This document shows, piece after piece, positions 343 through 6,304 of a stretch of DNA of 59,954 bases. The DNA is taken from the NCBI GenBank assembly GCA_016871755.1, contig VHCJ01000018.1:1-59954 (forward strand), in the 5' to 3' direction. Both the position numbers and the translations under genes were made by a program. The DNA comes from Verrucomicrobiota bacterium. Lineage in GTDB: Bacteria; Verrucomicrobiota; Verrucomicrobiia; Opitutales; Opitutaceae. Every line of letters starts with the position of its first letter. Position 1 is the stretch's first letter. The notes beneath the pieces are model-generated. The model saw nothing but the letters and a program-made list of their open reading frames with translations, was not told where the DNA came from and did no database searches.

Positions 343-3300
343 ATGATCGCCCGCGTCCTTCCCCTCGCCCGCCTGCTCCTCGCGTCCTGCTTCGTCACCC
401 TCGCCGCCCAAGCGGCCCCCGCGACACTGGAACTGCACGAGGGCGACCACATCTGCCTCATCGGCAACACGCTCGCCGAGCGCATGCAGCACCACAACCA
501 CTGGGAGGCGATGCTGCACCAGCGGTTTCCCCGCCACCAACTCGTGGTGCGCAACCTCGCGTGGCCGGCGGACGAGGTCGACCTCCGTCCCCGCGCCGAG
601 GGTTTCGGCGAGCCGGAGCAGCATCTCAAGGCCAACCGCGCCGACGTCATCCTCGCCTTCTTCGGCTTCAATGAATCCTTTGCCGGCCCCGACGGCCTGA
701 ACGCCTTCCGCGATCGCCTCGACGCGTGGGTCGTCGCCACGCCCCAAGCCGACTTCAGCGGCCGCGGTCGTCCACGCCTCGCGCTCGTTTCACCGATCGC
801 CCACGAAAACCTCCGCAATCCGGACCTGCCCGACGGGGACGCGAACAACCGCAACCTCGAGCTCTACACCGCAGTCATCCGCGACGTCGCCGCCCGGCGC
901 GGCGTGTTCTTCGCGGATCTCTTCCATCCCACCCGCGCGCTCTTCGCCTCCGGCAAGGGCCCGTTCACCGTCAACGGGGTCCACCTCACCGCCGCCGGCG
1001 ACGCCGCCGTGGCCCCCCTCCTCGACCGCGCGCTCTTCGGCCCCTCCGACGCTCCAAACAACGTGGATGAGACGCTGCGCGCGGCGATCGCCGACAAGAA
1101 CTTCCACTGGTACCATCATCACCGGATCGTCGACTCGTTCTACGTCTATGGCGGGCGCTCCGGGCTGAAGTTCGCCGATGGTCCCCAGACGAACCGCGAC
1201 GTCATGGAGCGTGAGCGCGAAGTGCTGGCGGTGATGACCCGCAACCGCGACGAACGGGTCTGGTCCCTCGCCCGCGATGGCCGCGTGCCGCCCCGCATCG
1301 ACGACGGCAACGTCCCTCCCTTCCTCCCAGTCGTCACCTCCTTCGGCATCAACCAGAGCAAGGACGCCGGCAGCAACACCGGCCAGACCAGCAAGTCGGC
1401 GGAGGGCAGCTCTGCAACCATCTCCCCTTCGGCGGAGACCTTGAAGAGCTTCACGCTCGCGCCGGGCTACGCGATCAACCTCTTCGCCTCCGAGGAACAG
1501 TTCCCCGAGCTGGGCAATGCCGTGGCCACGGCCTTCGACGCCCGTGGCCGCCTCTGGGTCTCGACGATGCAGACCTACCCGCAGTGGCGGCCCGGCGACC
1601 CGATGAACGACAAGCTGCTGATCCTCTCTGACACCAATCAGGACGGCCGGGCGGACACCTGCGCCGTCTTCGCCGACGACCTCCACCTGCCGATCGGCTT
1701 CGAGTTCGGTCTCGGCGGCGTGATCGTGAGCGGCCAGCGCGAGGTGCTGCTGCTGAAGGACACGAACGGCGATGATCGCGCGGACTTCCGCGAGATCCTG
1801 CTGAGCGGCTTCGATTCCGCCGACAGCCATCACGTGATCAATCAGTTCACGTTCGATCCGGGTGGTGCGCTGTACTTCCAGGAAGGCACGTTCCACTTCT
1901 CACAGGTTGAGACGCCCTACGGCCCCGTCCGGGCCAAGAACGCCGCCACCTACCGCTTCGCGCCCTTCTCCCAGAAGCTGGATGTGTTCGTCAGCTACAG
2001 CTACGCGAACCCGCACGGGATCACCTTCGACCGCTGGGGTCAGGCGTTCATCTCCGACTCCTCCGGCGGCGCCAACTACTTCGCCACGGCATTCTCGGGC
2101 TTCCTGCCGTACCCGGAAAAGCACTCCACGATGAAGCAGTGGTTCCCGAAGCGCGTGCGGCCGACCAGCGGGTGCGAATTCGTCAGCAGCCGCCACTTCC
2201 CGGACGAAGCCCAGGGGCTGTTCCTGCTCAACAACACGATCGGGGTGCAGGGCGTGCTGCAGCACCGCCGCACCGCGGCCGGCAGCGGGTTCGAAGGCGA
2301 GGAGATCGAGCCGCTGCTGCTGAGCTCCGACCGGAACTTCCGTCCGGTCGACCTTGAATTCGGTCCGGACGGCGCGCTCTACATCACGGACTGGCAGGAG
2401 GCCCTGATCGGCCACATGCAGTACTCGTTGCGCGATCCGCTCCGCGACAAGGCGCACGCCCGCATCTGGCGCATCACCTACCCGTCGCGCCCGTTGGTGC
2501 CGGTCGCGCGGATCGCCGGCGAGCCGATCGAGCACCTGCTCGAGTTGCTGCGCCTGCCGGAGGACCGGACCCGGATCCGGGCAAAGCAGGAGCTCGCGCT
2601 CCGGCCCCGCGCCGAGGTCATCGCCGCCGTCCAGCGCTGGGCCGCGCCGCTTGATCCGCGTTCCGCGGCCGATGCGTTCCTGCTCACCGAGGCGCTCTGG
2701 GTGCACCAGTGGATGAACGTGGTGAACCCCACCCTCCTCGCGCAGCAACTGCGCTCCCCCGAGCCGATGGCCCGTGCCGCCGCCACCCGCGTGCTCTGCT
2801 ACTGGCGCGATCGCCTGCCCAACGCGCTCGCGCTGCTGCGGGTGCAGGCCGCGGACGAACATCCGCTGGTGCGCCTCGAGGCGGTGCGCGCCGCCAGTTT
2901 CTTCACCGACCGCGCCGCGATCGACGTGGCCCTCGAAATCCTCAACCACCCGCGCGACTACTACCTCAACTACACGCTCGAGGAGACGATGCGCGCGCTC
3001 CAGCCCTCCCCGACGGAGATCAAGGATCCGCGCGCCCTCTCCTTCGTGCTCGGCCGGATGACCAACGCCGAGCTTGCCGCCGCGCCCGGTTCCGCCGCCG
3101 TCTACGCCGCCCAGGTCGAACGGGCGGGCCTCGACGCCGGCACCCGCGAGGTCGCACTCGCCGCGCTCGCGCAGCTCAACGGCACCACCCGCGAGGTCGA
3201 AATCGCCGCGGCCCTGACCCGCTTCGACGAACGCTACCAGGACCCGGGAACCGGCGGTGAGTTGGGCCGCCTGCTGGCGTCCTCCGCACCCGTCGACTTG

Positions 3301-4395
3301 CGGAAGGCCGAGGCGCAGATCATGCGCATGGCGTTGAAGGATCACGCGCTCACGTCCGTCCGCCGCGCCGGCCTCGCCGCGAAGGCCGTGATGGAGGGCT
3401 CCCCCGCCGGCGTGTGGCGGCAGACCGAGCCCAGCACCGATGGTCGCACCCTGCTGCTCGACGCCCTGTACCTGGTGGGCGACCCGGCCCTGCGTCTCCA
3501 GTTCCAGCCCCTCGTGGCCGGACTGCTCGCACCCGGGGCCACCGTCCCCGCCGCCAACGTCCGCGCCGCGGCGCTGCGCGTCCTCCCGATCCTCGGCGAG
3601 GAGCAAGCCGCAACCCACGCCCGCTTGATCGCCCCCTACGTGCTTCGCGAGGAGGATCGCGTGACCGCCACCCGCGCGTTGCTGCAGTTGCCCCGCACCG
3701 CATGGTCCGGGCTCGACGCCGCCACGCTCTCCCGCGGCATCCTCGCCCAGGCCACGCAGACGCCCGCCGCCGAGCGGTCGCAGCAGGAGTTCGTGGAGTT
3801 CACGCGGCTCGGCCAGGAACTCGCCGGGCTTCTCCCGGCCAAGGAGGCCGCTCCGCTCCGGCGCGCCTTCCGCGAACTCGGGGTCAGCGTCTTCGTCGTC
3901 AAGAGCGTGCGCGAACAGATGCGTTACGACACGACGCAGATTGTCGTACAGGCCGGGAAGCCGTTCGAAATCATCTTCGAGAACATCGACGTCATGCCGC
4001 ACAATCTCGTCGTCGTGAAGCCGGGCACCCGCGAGGCCATCGGCAACGCCGCCAACGTCATGCCGCCCACCCCGGACCGCCTGGGCCGGGCCTACGTGCC
4101 AGCCAGCAATGACGTCATCGCGGCCACCAAGATGCTCGAGCCCGGGCAGAAGGAGAAGCTGTTCATTCAGGCCCCGCGCACCGCCGGGAACTACGAGTTC
4201 GTCTGCACCTTCCCCGGGCACTGGCTCATCATGTGGGGCACGCTGGTCGTGACCGACGACCCGGAAACCTGGCTGCAGCAGCACGCCGCCGAAAGCCCCG
4301 CCGCCCCGGGTGCAACAGCACCCGCCGGCCACGGCGGTCATGGTGGACATGGCGGCGCCGCTGGCACCGGCAAAGACCACGCCCACGCCCCGTAG
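343..4395 (+). CDS. Exported SGNH-hydrolase / PVC-type beta-propeller / HEAT / azurin-like cupredoxin fusion
   Basis: A 1350-residue multidomain protein. The ATG at 343 is chosen because a signal peptide starts there, with likely cleavage after AAQA near residue 24; the open frame continues upstream to 280 without a signal. Cys16 within LLASC could alternatively be a lipobox. Order: SGNH-like domain (about 30-260, with FFGFNES and VNGVHLT blocks), a propeller of the PVC membrane-bound-dehydrogenase type (about 369-725, starting FTLAPGYAINLFAS), HEAT-like helices (about 726-1170) and a C-terminal cupredoxin (about 1183-1306). Type-1 copper ligands are visible: His1220 in MPHN, then Cys1288, His1293 and Met1297 in CTFPGHWLIM, spaced as in azurin. 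The tail is a run of GHGG repeats and HAHA, probably metal-binding. Relatives usually end in a CxxCH cytochrome domain; no CxxCH occurs here. A periplasmic redox enzyme carrying its own copper acceptor is inferred; the substrate is unknown. Confidence 0.85.
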   Translation: MIARVLPLARLLLASCFVTLAAQAAPATLELHEGDHICLIGNTLAERMQHHNHWEAMLHQRFPRHQLVVRNLAWPADEVDLRPRAEGFGEPEQHLKANRADVILAFFGFNESFAGPDGLNAFRDRLDAWVVATPQADFSGRGRPRLALVSPIAHENLRNPDLPDGDANNRNLELYTAVIRDVAARRGVFFADLFHPTRALFASGKGPFTVNGVHLTAAGDAAVAPLLDRALFGPSDAPNNVDETLRAAIADKNFHWYHHHRIVDSFYVYGGRSGLKFADGPQTNRDVMEREREVLAVMTRNRDERVWSLARDGRVPPRIDDGNVPPFLPVVTSFGINQSKDAGSNTGQTSKSAEGSSATISPSAETLKSFTLAPGYAINLFASEEQFPELGNAVATAFDARGRLWVSTMQTYPQWRPGDPMNDKLLILSDTNQDGRADTCAVFADDLHLPIGFEFGLGGVIVSGQREVLLLKDTNGDDRADFREILLSGFDSADSHHVINQFTFDPGGALYFQEGTFHFSQVETPYGPVRAKNAATYRFAPFSQKLDVFVSYSYANPHGITFDRWGQAFISDSSGGANYFATAFSGFLPYPEKHSTMKQWFPKRVRPTSGCEFVSSRHFPDEAQGLFLLNNTIGVQGVLQHRRTAAGSGFEGEEIEPLLLSSDRNFRPVDLEFGPDGALYITDWQEALIGHMQYSLRDPLRDKAHARIWRITYPSRPLVPVARIAGEPIEHLLELLRLPEDRTRIRAKQELALRPRAEVIAAVQRWAAPLDPRSAADAFLLTEALWVHQWMNVVNPTLLAQQLRSPEPMARAAATRVLCYWRDRLPNALALLRVQAADEHPLVRLEAVRAASFFTDRAAIDVALEILNHPRDYYLNYTLEETMRALQPSPTEIKDPRALSFVLGRMTNAELAAAPGSAAVYAAQVERAGLDAGTREVALAALAQLNGTTREVEIAAALTRFDERYQDPGTGGELGRLLASSAPVDLRKAEAQIMRMALKDHALTSVRRAGLAAKAVMEGSPAGVWRQTEPSTDGRTLLLDALYLVGDPALRLQFQPLVAGLLAPGATVPAANVRAAALRVLPILGEEQAATHARLIAPYVLREEDRVTATRALLQLPRTAWSGLDAATLSRGILAQATQTPAAERSQQEFVEFTRLGQELAGLLPAKEAAPLRRAFRELGVSVFVVKSVREQMRYDTTQIVVQAGKPFEIIFENIDVMPHNLVVVKPGTREAIGNAANVMPPTPDRLGRAYVPASNDVIAATKMLEPGQKEKLFIQAPRTAGNYEFVCTFPGHWLIMWGTLVVTDDPETWLQQHAAESPAAPGATAPAGHGGHGGHGGAAGTGKDHAHAP

Positions 4396-4436
4396 TTCGG
4401 GTCCCATCTTCCCCGCGCCGGGTACCGCGCTTCCCG

Positions 4437-4483
4437 CGCCGCCCGGCCAGACATTGCGGATTTCGCCGTCCAGCCGGGCGGCG
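4437..4483. terminator. Inverted repeat between convergent genes
   Basis: An 11-base inverted repeat (arms 4437-4447 and 4473-4483, core GCCGCCCGGC) with a 25-base spacer lies between the convergent cupredoxin-fusion and L,D-transpeptidase genes. There is no T-tract on either side, so it is at best a GC-rich hairpin terminator or transcript stabiliser. Confidence 0.3.
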
Positions 4484-4570
4484 GGGTGAACCACCTCCAG
4501 CGACGGTCGGCGCGCCGCGCTCCGTGCCGGTCCCAGCCGCCGCGCCGCCACCGACCGCCCGGGCCGTCGT

Positions 4571-5632
4571 TCAGGGCTCCACTCGCACCGGCAAGCCCAC
4601 CCACGCGAGTTGCAGCAGCGTGCGCGCGTCCCAGTTCGCGAGGCGGAAGCATCCATGGGACTCCGTCCTCCCCACCTGCTCGGGCGACGGGGTGCCGTGG
4701 AGCCCGTAGCCGGGGCGGTCGAGGCCGATCCATGCCACGCCGACCGGATTGTTGGGTCCGGGCGGGATCATCAGGCGCCGCCCCAAACGCCGGCCTTCCT
4801 CCGACTCCGGGAAGGTCTCGGGCTTGAACGTGTAGTCGGGGTCGGGAATCACCACCGTGACGCGCAATTCGCCCACGGGGCGCTTGGCGACGTCGCGCGC
4901 GATGCTCACCGGGCAGTGAAACACGATGGCGCCGCGGGCGTCCCGCGCCTGCAGCACGCGCTCGGCAAGCCGGATGTGCAGGTGCGCGGGGGATGGCAGC
5001 CTTCGCCGCGACTCGACATCCGGGACGGTCACCCGTGCACCCGGCACCGCCCGAGGCCAGTCAAATGCGGGATTGATCCGCTGGAGGAGGCGGGGATGCG
5101 CCCGGAATCGCTCCGCGATGCGCTCCAACAGGGTCTCATGCGCCAGCGAGGGCTGTTGCGACTTCTCGAGCCACGTCGCGCCCAGCGGTGACAGTCCCGC
5201 GAGGTCTTCCTCCCGCAACGTCACCTCCGCGAGCGGGGTCCGCAGCAGCGTGAGCCGGGCGCGGGTCGCTTCATCCCACTCGCCCGTGAGGCCGAGCGCC
5301 TCGCTCTCCTGAAAGGCCCGGAGTGCCGCGCGGGTCTGCGGCCCGGGAGTGCCGTCGATGGATCCGCTGGAGAAGCCGCGCTGCGCCAGCGCCACCTGAA
5401 CCTCAAGCCAGGTCGCCGCCACCCGCGGCTCCGCGGCCGGAGCGACGGCCTCCCCCACCCCGGCGGACGCGCCCGGGTCCTCCATCACCGCCGGGCGCTC
5501 GGGCCAGGGTGGCGGACGGAATTCCACCTGGGCCGATGCCGTGAGCCACGCTCCGGCGACGACGAGGCCGGCGCACCACGCGATGGCGTGGAACCTCGGG
5601 CCGCGAGCGACTCGCCCGGAGGCACGACGCAA
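4571..5632 (-). CDS. L,D-transpeptidase (YkuD fold) with peptidoglycan-binding domain
   Basis: A 353-residue exported enzyme that makes 3-3 peptidoglycan cross-links or attaches proteins to the wall (family knowledge). After the signal peptide comes a PG_binding_1-type helical repeat (SGSIDGTPGPQTRAALRAFQ), a linker with a possible LysM-like segment, and the YkuD catalytic core ending in HGTPSPEQ and SHGCFRL, with catalytic Cys328 and neighbouring His326. Start choice: a TTG at 5630-5632 directly precedes an ideal signal peptide (basic n-region, hydrophobic AGLVVAGAWLTASAQ). The frame is open further up, with an ATG at 5743 and a GTG at 5791, but that stretch has non-coding-like codon use. 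It follows the TPR gene on the same strand. Confidence 0.85.
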   Translation of the reverse strand: MRRASGRVARGPRFHAIAWCAGLVVAGAWLTASAQVEFRPPPWPERPAVMEDPGASAGVGEAVAPAAEPRVAATWLEVQVALAQRGFSSGSIDGTPGPQTRAALRAFQESEALGLTGEWDEATRARLTLLRTPLAEVTLREEDLAGLSPLGATWLEKSQQPSLAHETLLERIAERFRAHPRLLQRINPAFDWPRAVPGARVTVPDVESRRRLPSPAHLHIRLAERVLQARDARGAIVFHCPVSIARDVAKRPVGELRVTVVIPDPDYTFKPETFPESEEGRRLGRRLMIPPGPNNPVGVAWIGLDRPGYGLHGTPSPEQVGRTESHGCFRLANWDARTLLQLAWVGLPVRVEP

Positions 5633-5806
5633 ACGCGCAGCGGAGTCCGCTCCGCAGGGCTGTGACGGCGCAACCACGAACGCAGCCTGACGCGAGAGAC
5701 CGGCGGTGCCAAGCCCGTGGCCGCAGTGATGGCCGCGAGCCATCGCCGCGATCCGACCTGCGAGGCCTCGCTTCGCCCCGGCCAAGCCCACCGCGAGAGC
5801 CGGCGG

Positions 5807-6304
5807 TCAACCGGCAGCTCCGCCTGCGGCGAAAAGCGCCTTCAGGTCGGGATCGGACCGGGCGGTCTTCTCCCAATCCCCATCGAGTTTGCTCGCGCGC
5901 GCGAGCCGGCGGCGCGCCTCGGCGACGTTGCCGAGGAGGCATTCGTAGCAGGCGAGGTTGTACTGGAGTACGCCCGACGTGAATTGGTGATGGGGAAGCG
6001 CCTGAAGCAGCACCTCGCGGGCCTCGCTGATCTGGTTCAACTCGCGCAGCGCGTAGGCGAGGGCGATCCACGCGGCCTCGTAGCCTGGCTCCGTGCGCGT
6101 GATCGGTCGGGCCAGCAGGACCACCTGCCGCCAGTGCCGGAGGCCCATCGCGCAGTCCACCAGAAGCTTGCGCGCCGGCAACCCGCGGCGCTCCTCCCGG
6201 GGCAGGAGCATGAGTTCCCGCTTCGCCTCGCGGGCCAGACCCAGCGCGAGGTAGCCGGGCGCGTACGCGAGCCGGGCGGCAGCGGTAATGGAGGACTCAA
6301 CCAC
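5807..6304 (-). CDS. TPR-repeat protein
   Basis: A 165-residue, largely helical protein with tetratricopeptide-like spacing, for example EPGYEAAWIALAYALRELNQ followed by a second repeat around VLQYNLACYECLLGN. Such repeats mediate protein-protein contacts; no catalytic motif or signal peptide is visible. The chosen start is a GTG at 6302-6304. A nearby ATG at 6313-6315 is in another frame. It lies between the EamA-type transporter fragment and the L,D-transpeptidase on the same strand and could be co-transcribed with them. The partner is unknown. Confidence 0.65.
   Translation of the reverse strand: MVESSITAAARLAYAPGYLALGLAREAKRELMLLPREERRGLPARKLLVDCAMGLRHWRQVVLLARPITRTEPGYEAAWIALAYALRELNQISEAREVLLQALPHHQFTSGVLQYNLACYECLLGNVAEARRRLARASKLDGDWEKTARSDPDLKALFAAGGAAG

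Follow-up and report, generated by a model that had tools for sequence, protein, structure and literature searches.

Introduction

CcPDH, an AA12 enzyme, is a propeller dependent on pyrroloquinoline quinone (PQQ) that is joined to a cytochrome b domain, and its catalytic histidine, His363, is described as equivalent to His144 of the sugar dehydrogenase sGDH (both from the available part of PMC6881789). Lac161_ORF7 (AGW45552), from a metagenomic clone assigned to Chthoniobacter, combines a TIGR02604 propeller, HEAT repeats and a cytochrome c, and is reported to hydrolyse lactose with a Km of 1.8 mM (available part of PMC5342196). Azurin genes have been reported in Verrucomicrobia, the single hit in Planctomycetes being held for contamination or wrong annotation (available part of PMC8779525). 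Here we describe a gene at positions 343..4395 (+) of a 59,954-nucleotide stretch of DNA from a Verrucomicrobiota bacterium (contig VHCJ01000018.1; the whole stretch is referred to as the window). Its product carries an SGNH-fold domain, a propeller of the TIGR02604 type, a HEAT-repeat solenoid and an azurin/auracyanin-type copper domain. Among the titles and abstract openings listed from the open-access PubMed Central (PMC) literature none concerned this copper architecture, and the domain combination looks undescribed there; every part of it comes from a known family. We propose, with a probability of roughly one half, that the protein belongs to a family of exported carbohydrate oxidoreductases of the Planctomycetes-Verrucomicrobia-Chlamydiae (PVC) group, in which the propeller passes electrons to a C-terminal type-1 copper, the SGNH-fold domain has no esterase role and the electron outlets are modular.

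Results

Architecture of the protein and its copper site

The gene is an uninterrupted frame of 1350 amino acids whose product is probably exported, as judged from translation, Pfam, NCBIfam and full-length relatives. Pfam matches Lipase_GDSL_2 (E 2.2e-8), DUF7133 (7.1e-62), HEAT_2 (1.8e-10) and Copper-bind (3e-10), and the NCBIfam model TIGR02604, whose cut-off is 122.2 bits, scores 195.7. Together with the alignments, these matches bear out the sequence-only reading of this gene, which had placed SGNH, propeller, HEAT and azurin-type copper domains in one polypeptide. It had also noted the absence of CxxCH, and indeed none is found in the frame, nor in the six frames of window positions 4251-6100. 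This architecture is not due to chance, since full-length relatives occur at loci that carry the label Verrucomicrobiota, and loci with the label Planctomycetota hold fused or split ones.

The C-terminal domain (amino acids 1186-1304; 3898..4254, +) was assigned from Pfam, alignments and a structural model. It aligns over its full length with auracyanin A (2aan, E 4e-12), and also with 6kol and azurins, with His1220 (4000..4002) and the loop Cys1288-x4-His1293-x3-Met1297 (4204..4233) falling on the conserved His, Cys, His and Met of auracyanin and azurin, which we take to be the copper ligands there. In an alignment of 44 family members the His1220 column is His in 44/44, and Cys1288, His1293 and Met1297 are each present in 43/43 readable rows, the remaining row being gapped at the Cys-His-Met loop where its contig ends. 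The azurin-like spacing claimed for these putative ligands thus stands, with the numbering correct. In an AlphaFold2 model of residues 341-1312, with a predicted local distance difference test (pLDDT) score of 89.5 and a predicted TM-score (pTM) of 0.73, the cupredoxin matches auracyanin A (TMt 0.89, 1.9 Å) and, based on that match, the four ligands should cluster in the fold. The azurin equivalog model TIGR02695 gives 41.6 bits, under its cut-off of 105.1. Taken together, it is supported that the protein ends, at its electron-carrier end, in an azurin/auracyanin-type cupredoxin without haem.

The tail that follows (amino acids 1305-1350; 4255..4392, +; read from the translation and compared among relatives) has an end rich in His, Gly and Ala, so that the His-rich tail noted earlier is real. 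At least two His occur in the last 15 residues of 20/57 SGNH proteins with copper vs 2/50 without (Fisher p 7e-5); once relatedness is allowed for the association is not significant (median p 0.125), and the tail was dropped as a candidate copper partner. His-rich C-termini are seen in some fused forms. Where the pair is split, the product of the second gene has a His-rich mature N-terminus (for example DHDHGHH or DHSHHHH) in L026, L030, L040, L087 and L089; in L088, L110 and L043 its mature start is not His-rich.

Electron outlets among the relatives

A scan of genome contigs gave 25 loci, labelled Verrucomicrobiota or Planctomycetota. Of 387 genomes from the window's own phylum at least 31 had a match at E <= 1e-100, as did at least 40 of 199 from the phylum to which G195 belongs, the genome that carries locus L026 with its Rubripirellula label; these counts are lower bounds, as two or three candidates were scored per genome. 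Among named relatives, the closest comes from an uncultured Opitutaceae metagenome-assembled genome (L021; 92% in the best segment, 97% over 361 propeller columns).

To survey the outlets, 151 distinct open reading frames (ORFs) containing a propeller or a cupredoxin were classified by domain content; because they had been collected for their resemblance to the window protein, the proportions are biased. Complete SGNH-propeller ORFs comprise 35 with copper only (the window protein included), 22 with copper and then CxxCH, 34 that lack copper and have CxxCH downstream of the propeller, and 16 with neither. The haem is of two kinds. All 22 copper-plus-haem ORFs have as their best match the haem of the second gene of L026, which scores 88.0 bits with TIGR02603 (cut-off 68.15; the haem of L083 scores 86.2), and Pfam confirmed both copper and cytochrome c domains in the second gene of L026 and in the fused L083. 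The 34 haem-only ORFs divide into 27 nearest the L059 type, 6 of the L026 type and 1 matching neither query; in the three of these 27 that were scanned (L111, L061 and L064) there was no TIGR02603 match and a full-length Cytochrom_C in all. An ordinary cytochrome c end is therefore seen in 27/33 typed complete haem-only relatives and in 0/57 complete copper-bearing ones, so that within these ORFs copper and ordinary cytochrome c are mutually exclusive: the cupredoxin directly precedes a TIGR02603-type haem or stands alone, and is never found with ordinary cytochrome c. The earlier suggestion that copper stands in place of cytochrome c consequently holds for the ordinary kind and fails for the TIGR02603-type haem, which comes directly after copper in 22/57 and shares one subunit with it in split relatives.

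Such splitting occurs among the proteins with neither domain. A HEAT-cupredoxin-haem gene lies directly downstream in three of the 16 (L026, L030 and L040) and elsewhere in the genome in four (L028, L031, L032 and L107), and L110 adjoins a HEAT-cupredoxin gene without CxxCH. In L128 (G582, of the window genome's genus) the cupredoxin is encoded in a different frame, which overlaps the HEAT ORF at its end and likely reflects a frameshift. The second genes of the Verrucomicrobia-labelled L043 and L044 have both copper and haem. Near the copper-only members no haem gene was found among same-strand ORFs of at least 100 amino acids starting within 1.5 kb downstream, at least 900 nt being available for this search in 25 of the 35 loci and less in 10. 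Two further domain arrangements were seen: the copper-plus-haem relative L083 has a PA14 domain (about residues 1105-1196) between its HEAT region and cupredoxin, and the haem-type relative L064 (88-4338) has a ThuA domain ahead of SGNH, showing that these two N-terminal domains, which the window's genome has in separate proteins, can co-occur.

The direction of change was examined on a tree of 126 propellers, built by a quick method with SH-aLRT (approximate likelihood ratio test) support. The clade that holds the window protein has support 100 and comprises 8 rows, all Verrucomicrobiota by label or kinship, and the 7 with a readable end are all copper-only. Seven split proteins took their score from the partner gene, and no score was given to rows with neither domain; over the 111 scored rows, parsimony requires copper to have changed at least 11 times and pooled haem at least 8 times. 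A node with support 85 joins this clade to the next 61 rows, and for the ancestor there a two-state model gave P 0.88 for copper and P 0.99 for pooled haem; with the haem types separated (108 rows) the values are 0.41 for the TIGR02603-like and 0.00 for the ordinary type. Copper was thus likely present in that ancestor. Loss of haem in the window clade rested on the pooled value and disappears with the types separated, and that claim is withdrawn; the clade may have lost a TIGR02603 haem or may never have had one.

The propeller

The DUF7133/TIGR02604 propeller (amino acids 364-713; 1432..2481, +) was delimited from Pfam, NCBIfam and VIA-align, and in VIA-align comparisons of the model its best solved matches are PQQ sugar dehydrogenases. 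The AA12 structure 6i1q is the top match (Z 29.1 over 290 residues, 2.8 Å), other PQQ enzymes follow (3a9g, Z 28.6; CcPDH 6jt5, 28.1; sGDH 1qbi, 26.9), and HHIP and lactonase/DFPase folds come from Z 24.4 down. Active-site residues were mapped by eye from the motif HVINQFTFDPGGALYF of the window protein and HFGGRLAFDRAGYLYF of a glucose/sorbosone dehydrogenase (GSDH) encoded in the same genome (L239), itself aligned to solved enzymes. In this mapping His497 corresponds to the catalytic His144 of sGDH and His363 of CcPDH; over 74 rows His496 is present in 74 and His497 in 73 (His496-His497, 1828..1833, +). Asn556 (2008..2010, +), present in 74/74 and preceded by Ala555, falls on the PQQ-contacting Asn431 of CcPDH, and Arg667 is found in 69/74. 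As a set, the catalytic His and the PQQ-contacting Arg-Asn pair are incomplete in the window protein, the Arg being absent. This is likely a redox propeller; its cofactor is considered in the Discussion.

The SGNH-fold domain

The N-terminal domain (amino acids 21-240; 403..1062, +) was assigned from PF13472 (35.3 bits against a cut-off of 32.9), from its model, which Foldseek matches to GDSL/SGNH esterases, from residue counts and from alignments to 7br2 and 1yzf. It is clear that its catalytic residues are degenerate. Thr43 (469-471, +) occupies the Ser position, Asn211 (973-975, +) the Asp position, and only His214 (982-984, +) is kept. Across 74 rows position 43 is Ala in 23, Thr in 21, Gly in 13, Ser in 7, Glu in 6, Val in 1 and Asn in 1, with 2 gaps; position 211 is Asn in 60, Asp in 10, Gly in 3 and Gln in 1; and position 214 is His in 61. 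The complete Ser, Asp and His triad occurs in 1/74 rows (L023). The sequence-only reading had this domain de-esterify the propeller's substrate, a step which the missing catalytic residues make unlikely, and an esterase role was rejected on these counts. Arg47 and Glu111 are each kept in 72/74 rows, which at the level of sequence suggests a pocket retained but different. Haem-only rows are likewise degenerate, and therefore the change is not tied to copper.

Remaining features, own genome and neighbourhoods

The N-terminus resembles a signal peptide (amino acids 1-25; 343..417, +), with a basic start and then a hydrophobic stretch to AQA, as judged by eye. Between propeller and cupredoxin lies the HEAT-repeat solenoid (amino acids 716-1178; 2488..3876, +), with a HEAT_2 match at amino acids 798-880 and a model that is helical in this region. 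The contig begins 342 bases upstream of the gene; a promoter and terminator scan gave no signal above chance, and a repeat search at the 3' end a single weak pair.

Ten propeller loci were counted as matched rows in the window's own genome (G000). L046 (7027-10617 on C6) is a second copper-ending paralogue with ThuA in place of SGNH; its ThuA-DUF7133 and HEAT-cupredoxin parts share one frame with a single TAA stop between them, reflecting decay, an assembly error or a split gene. L045 (6061-10521, -, on C9) is a haem-type SGNH-propeller-HEAT paralogue with a 1487-residue open frame and the motif CVACH; it too has Thr at the SGNH nucleophile position, and shows a weak, sub-cut-off GSDH match (E 9.6e-4). 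L053 (about 4420-4632 on C8) holds an apparent remnant of an azurin-type C-terminus, a 77-residue open frame with in-frame stops just upstream. L054 (5098-5712 on C13) encodes a stand-alone azurin-like protein with a lipoprotein-like start, judged by eye, and it is possible that this is an electron partner of the window protein. L239 (1033-2550 on C3) fuses cytochrome c to GSDH and has its HRNPQG motif intact; as the genome has no PqqC match, PQQ for this enzyme would have to be scavenged.

For the neighbourhoods, 10 of 53 flanking ORFs from five loci of the window's clade were scanned. L020 adjoins an alpha-L-fucosidase, a Gfo/Idh/MocA protein and an aldo/keto reductase, L024 a sulfatase, L038 a BD-FAE-type esterase, DUF3500 and PGA_cap, and L022 an ORF with a doubtful ELYS match; two further scanned ORFs had no family. 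No family was shared among these ten.

Discussion

We infer redox catalysis, a sugar substrate and a direction of electron flow as follows. The propeller, built like those of PQQ-dependent sugar dehydrogenases, would oxidise a sugar or glycoside, and the electrons would exit by way of the type-1 copper domain at the C-terminus, which would hand them to a soluble carrier or an oxidase. The HEAT solenoid may act as a spacer or as docking for the copper domain, and the SGNH-fold domain, having no esterase function, probably serves in substrate binding or has a structural role. Across the family the outlets would be modular: copper alone, as in the window protein, copper with a TIGR02603-type haem, a separate copper-haem subunit, or ordinary cytochrome c.

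Several observations weigh against this proposal. The counterpart of Arg430 of CcPDH, a PQQ contact, is not Arg in any of 74 rows (position 555, Ala in the window protein); PF07995 gives no match to the window protein at E up to 1; and PqqC gives no match in 21/21 family-bearing genomes, the window's own included. A first PqqC search had found no match in its 14 controls either; in a phylum-wide rerun that served as positive control, the model exceeded its cut-off in 5/194 genomes. The Ttpf08450-X173 propeller, distantly like sorbosone dehydrogenases, is reported not to bind PQQ (available part of PMC10916295). Seven of the 16 proteins with neither carrier have no stand-alone HEAT-copper-haem partner in their genome at E <= 1e-20; in two of these (L190 and L191) an ORF of about 600 amino acids follows. 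Lastly, Lac161_ORF7, the sole tested TIGR02604-HEAT-cytochrome protein that was found, is reported to hydrolyse lactose, with a dehydrogenase assay unreported in the available part of its source (PMC5342196). With the catalytic His kept, one PQQ arginine absent and PqqC not found, PQQ is a possible cofactor of this propeller.

A rival explanation is that the propeller instead cleaves glycosides, as a hydrolase or lyase-like enzyme, and that the metal domain has a minor function, for instance in attachment, in stability or in the handling of copper. The lactose hydrolysis of Lac161_ORF7, the missing PqqC and arginine, and the members that have neither a carrier domain nor a close partner all fit this explanation. 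However, the carrier ligands are strictly kept and the tree shows no fewer than 11 changes of the copper end and 8 of the haem end, both of which are hard to explain without electron transfer; the best propeller matches are PQQ dehydrogenases; and the lactose activity was reported only with haem present (available part of PMC5342196). We therefore regard a glycoside-cleaving propeller as a doubtful alternative, albeit the one that fares best.

An improbable one follows the sequence-only reading: a single-step exchange of the haem domain for a cupredoxin, together with an SGNH domain that removes acetyl groups from the propeller's substrate. The window protein does bear copper and lack haem, copper and ordinary cytochrome c are never found together, and some ordinary-haem rows sit inside mostly copper clades; L111 beside the copper-only L105 (support 93) looks like a direct swap. 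The 22 complete relatives with copper and a TIGR02603-type haem in series speak against a one-step replacement, and the Thr and Asn of the window's SGNH domain, with a full triad in one row of the family, against deacetylation. The swap alone is possible; combined with deacetylation it is not likely. Equally hard to credit is that the cupredoxin and His-rich tail take up, buffer or detoxify copper on a propeller-HEAT scaffold, since the excess of His-rich ends among copper proteins, joined by the five His-rich second-gene products (three others lacking the feature), loses its significance when relatedness is considered, the intact C-x4-H-x3-M loop is of the electron-carrier type and a c-type haem adjoins it in 22 complete members.

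If the oxidoreductase proposal is correct, it may be extended, more speculatively, to a set of exported PVC sugar oxidoreductases whose electron wire is built in and evolvable. This would run from propeller to copper to TIGR02603 haem, in one chain or two subunits, and be shortened to copper or exchanged for ordinary cytochrome c; the former esterase would be a non-catalytic sugar-binding module and the cofactor might be of a quinone type other than self-made PQQ. We offer this picture only tentatively. The family in any case forms a natural series of outlet variants (copper-only, copper plus haem, cytochrome c and split) around a hardly tested enzyme, which would serve in working out the substrate of the propeller and the onward path of its electrons. 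PVC genomes are rich in such propeller proteins, and one with a tested activity was found. What is called the haem of these proteins is in fact two different domains, and the SGNH label should not be taken to mean an esterase.

Comparison with known systems

The window protein shares with the PVC-type heme-binding CxxCH proteins (TIGR02604 Piru_Ver_Nterm / DUF7133 PF23500) a propeller above both cut-offs, HEAT repeats after it and a large multidomain build, but differs in having no CxxCH and a cupredoxin end. The NCBIfam name would therefore be wrong for it, as for a copper subgroup of the family; because TIGR02604 exceeds its cut-off, automatic annotation could nonetheless apply the name 'PVC-type heme-binding CxxCH protein' to this haem-less chain. 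With Lac161_ORF7 it has in common the TIGR02604 propeller and HEAT_2 with a carrier domain, whereas that protein has a cytochrome c end and a reported lactose hydrolysis, and no SGNH domain is described for it in the available part of its source (PMC5342196).

SGNH/GDSL esterases such as Axe2 and BT4096 (7br2) resemble the N-terminal domain in fold, in the Gly and Asn of block III and in the His of block V; the window protein differs in its Thr for Ser and Asn for Asp, with near-invariant Arg47 and Glu111 instead. The cupredoxin has the fold and the four conserved ligand residues of auracyanin A/B and azurin (PF00127), but is here the C-terminal domain of a 1350-residue protein, and its first His is preceded by Pro1219, where azurin presumably has Gly. 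Finally, the PQQ sugar dehydrogenases (the AA12 enzyme CcPDH, sGDH and aldose sugar dehydrogenases) share the propeller fold, the catalytic His and the PQQ-contacting Asn, and differ in the PQQ Arg, absent here throughout, in PF07995, unmatched here, and in PqqC, not found. CcPDH is also alike in that its propeller is fused to an electron-carrier domain; that carrier is cytochrome b, and in the window protein it is copper.

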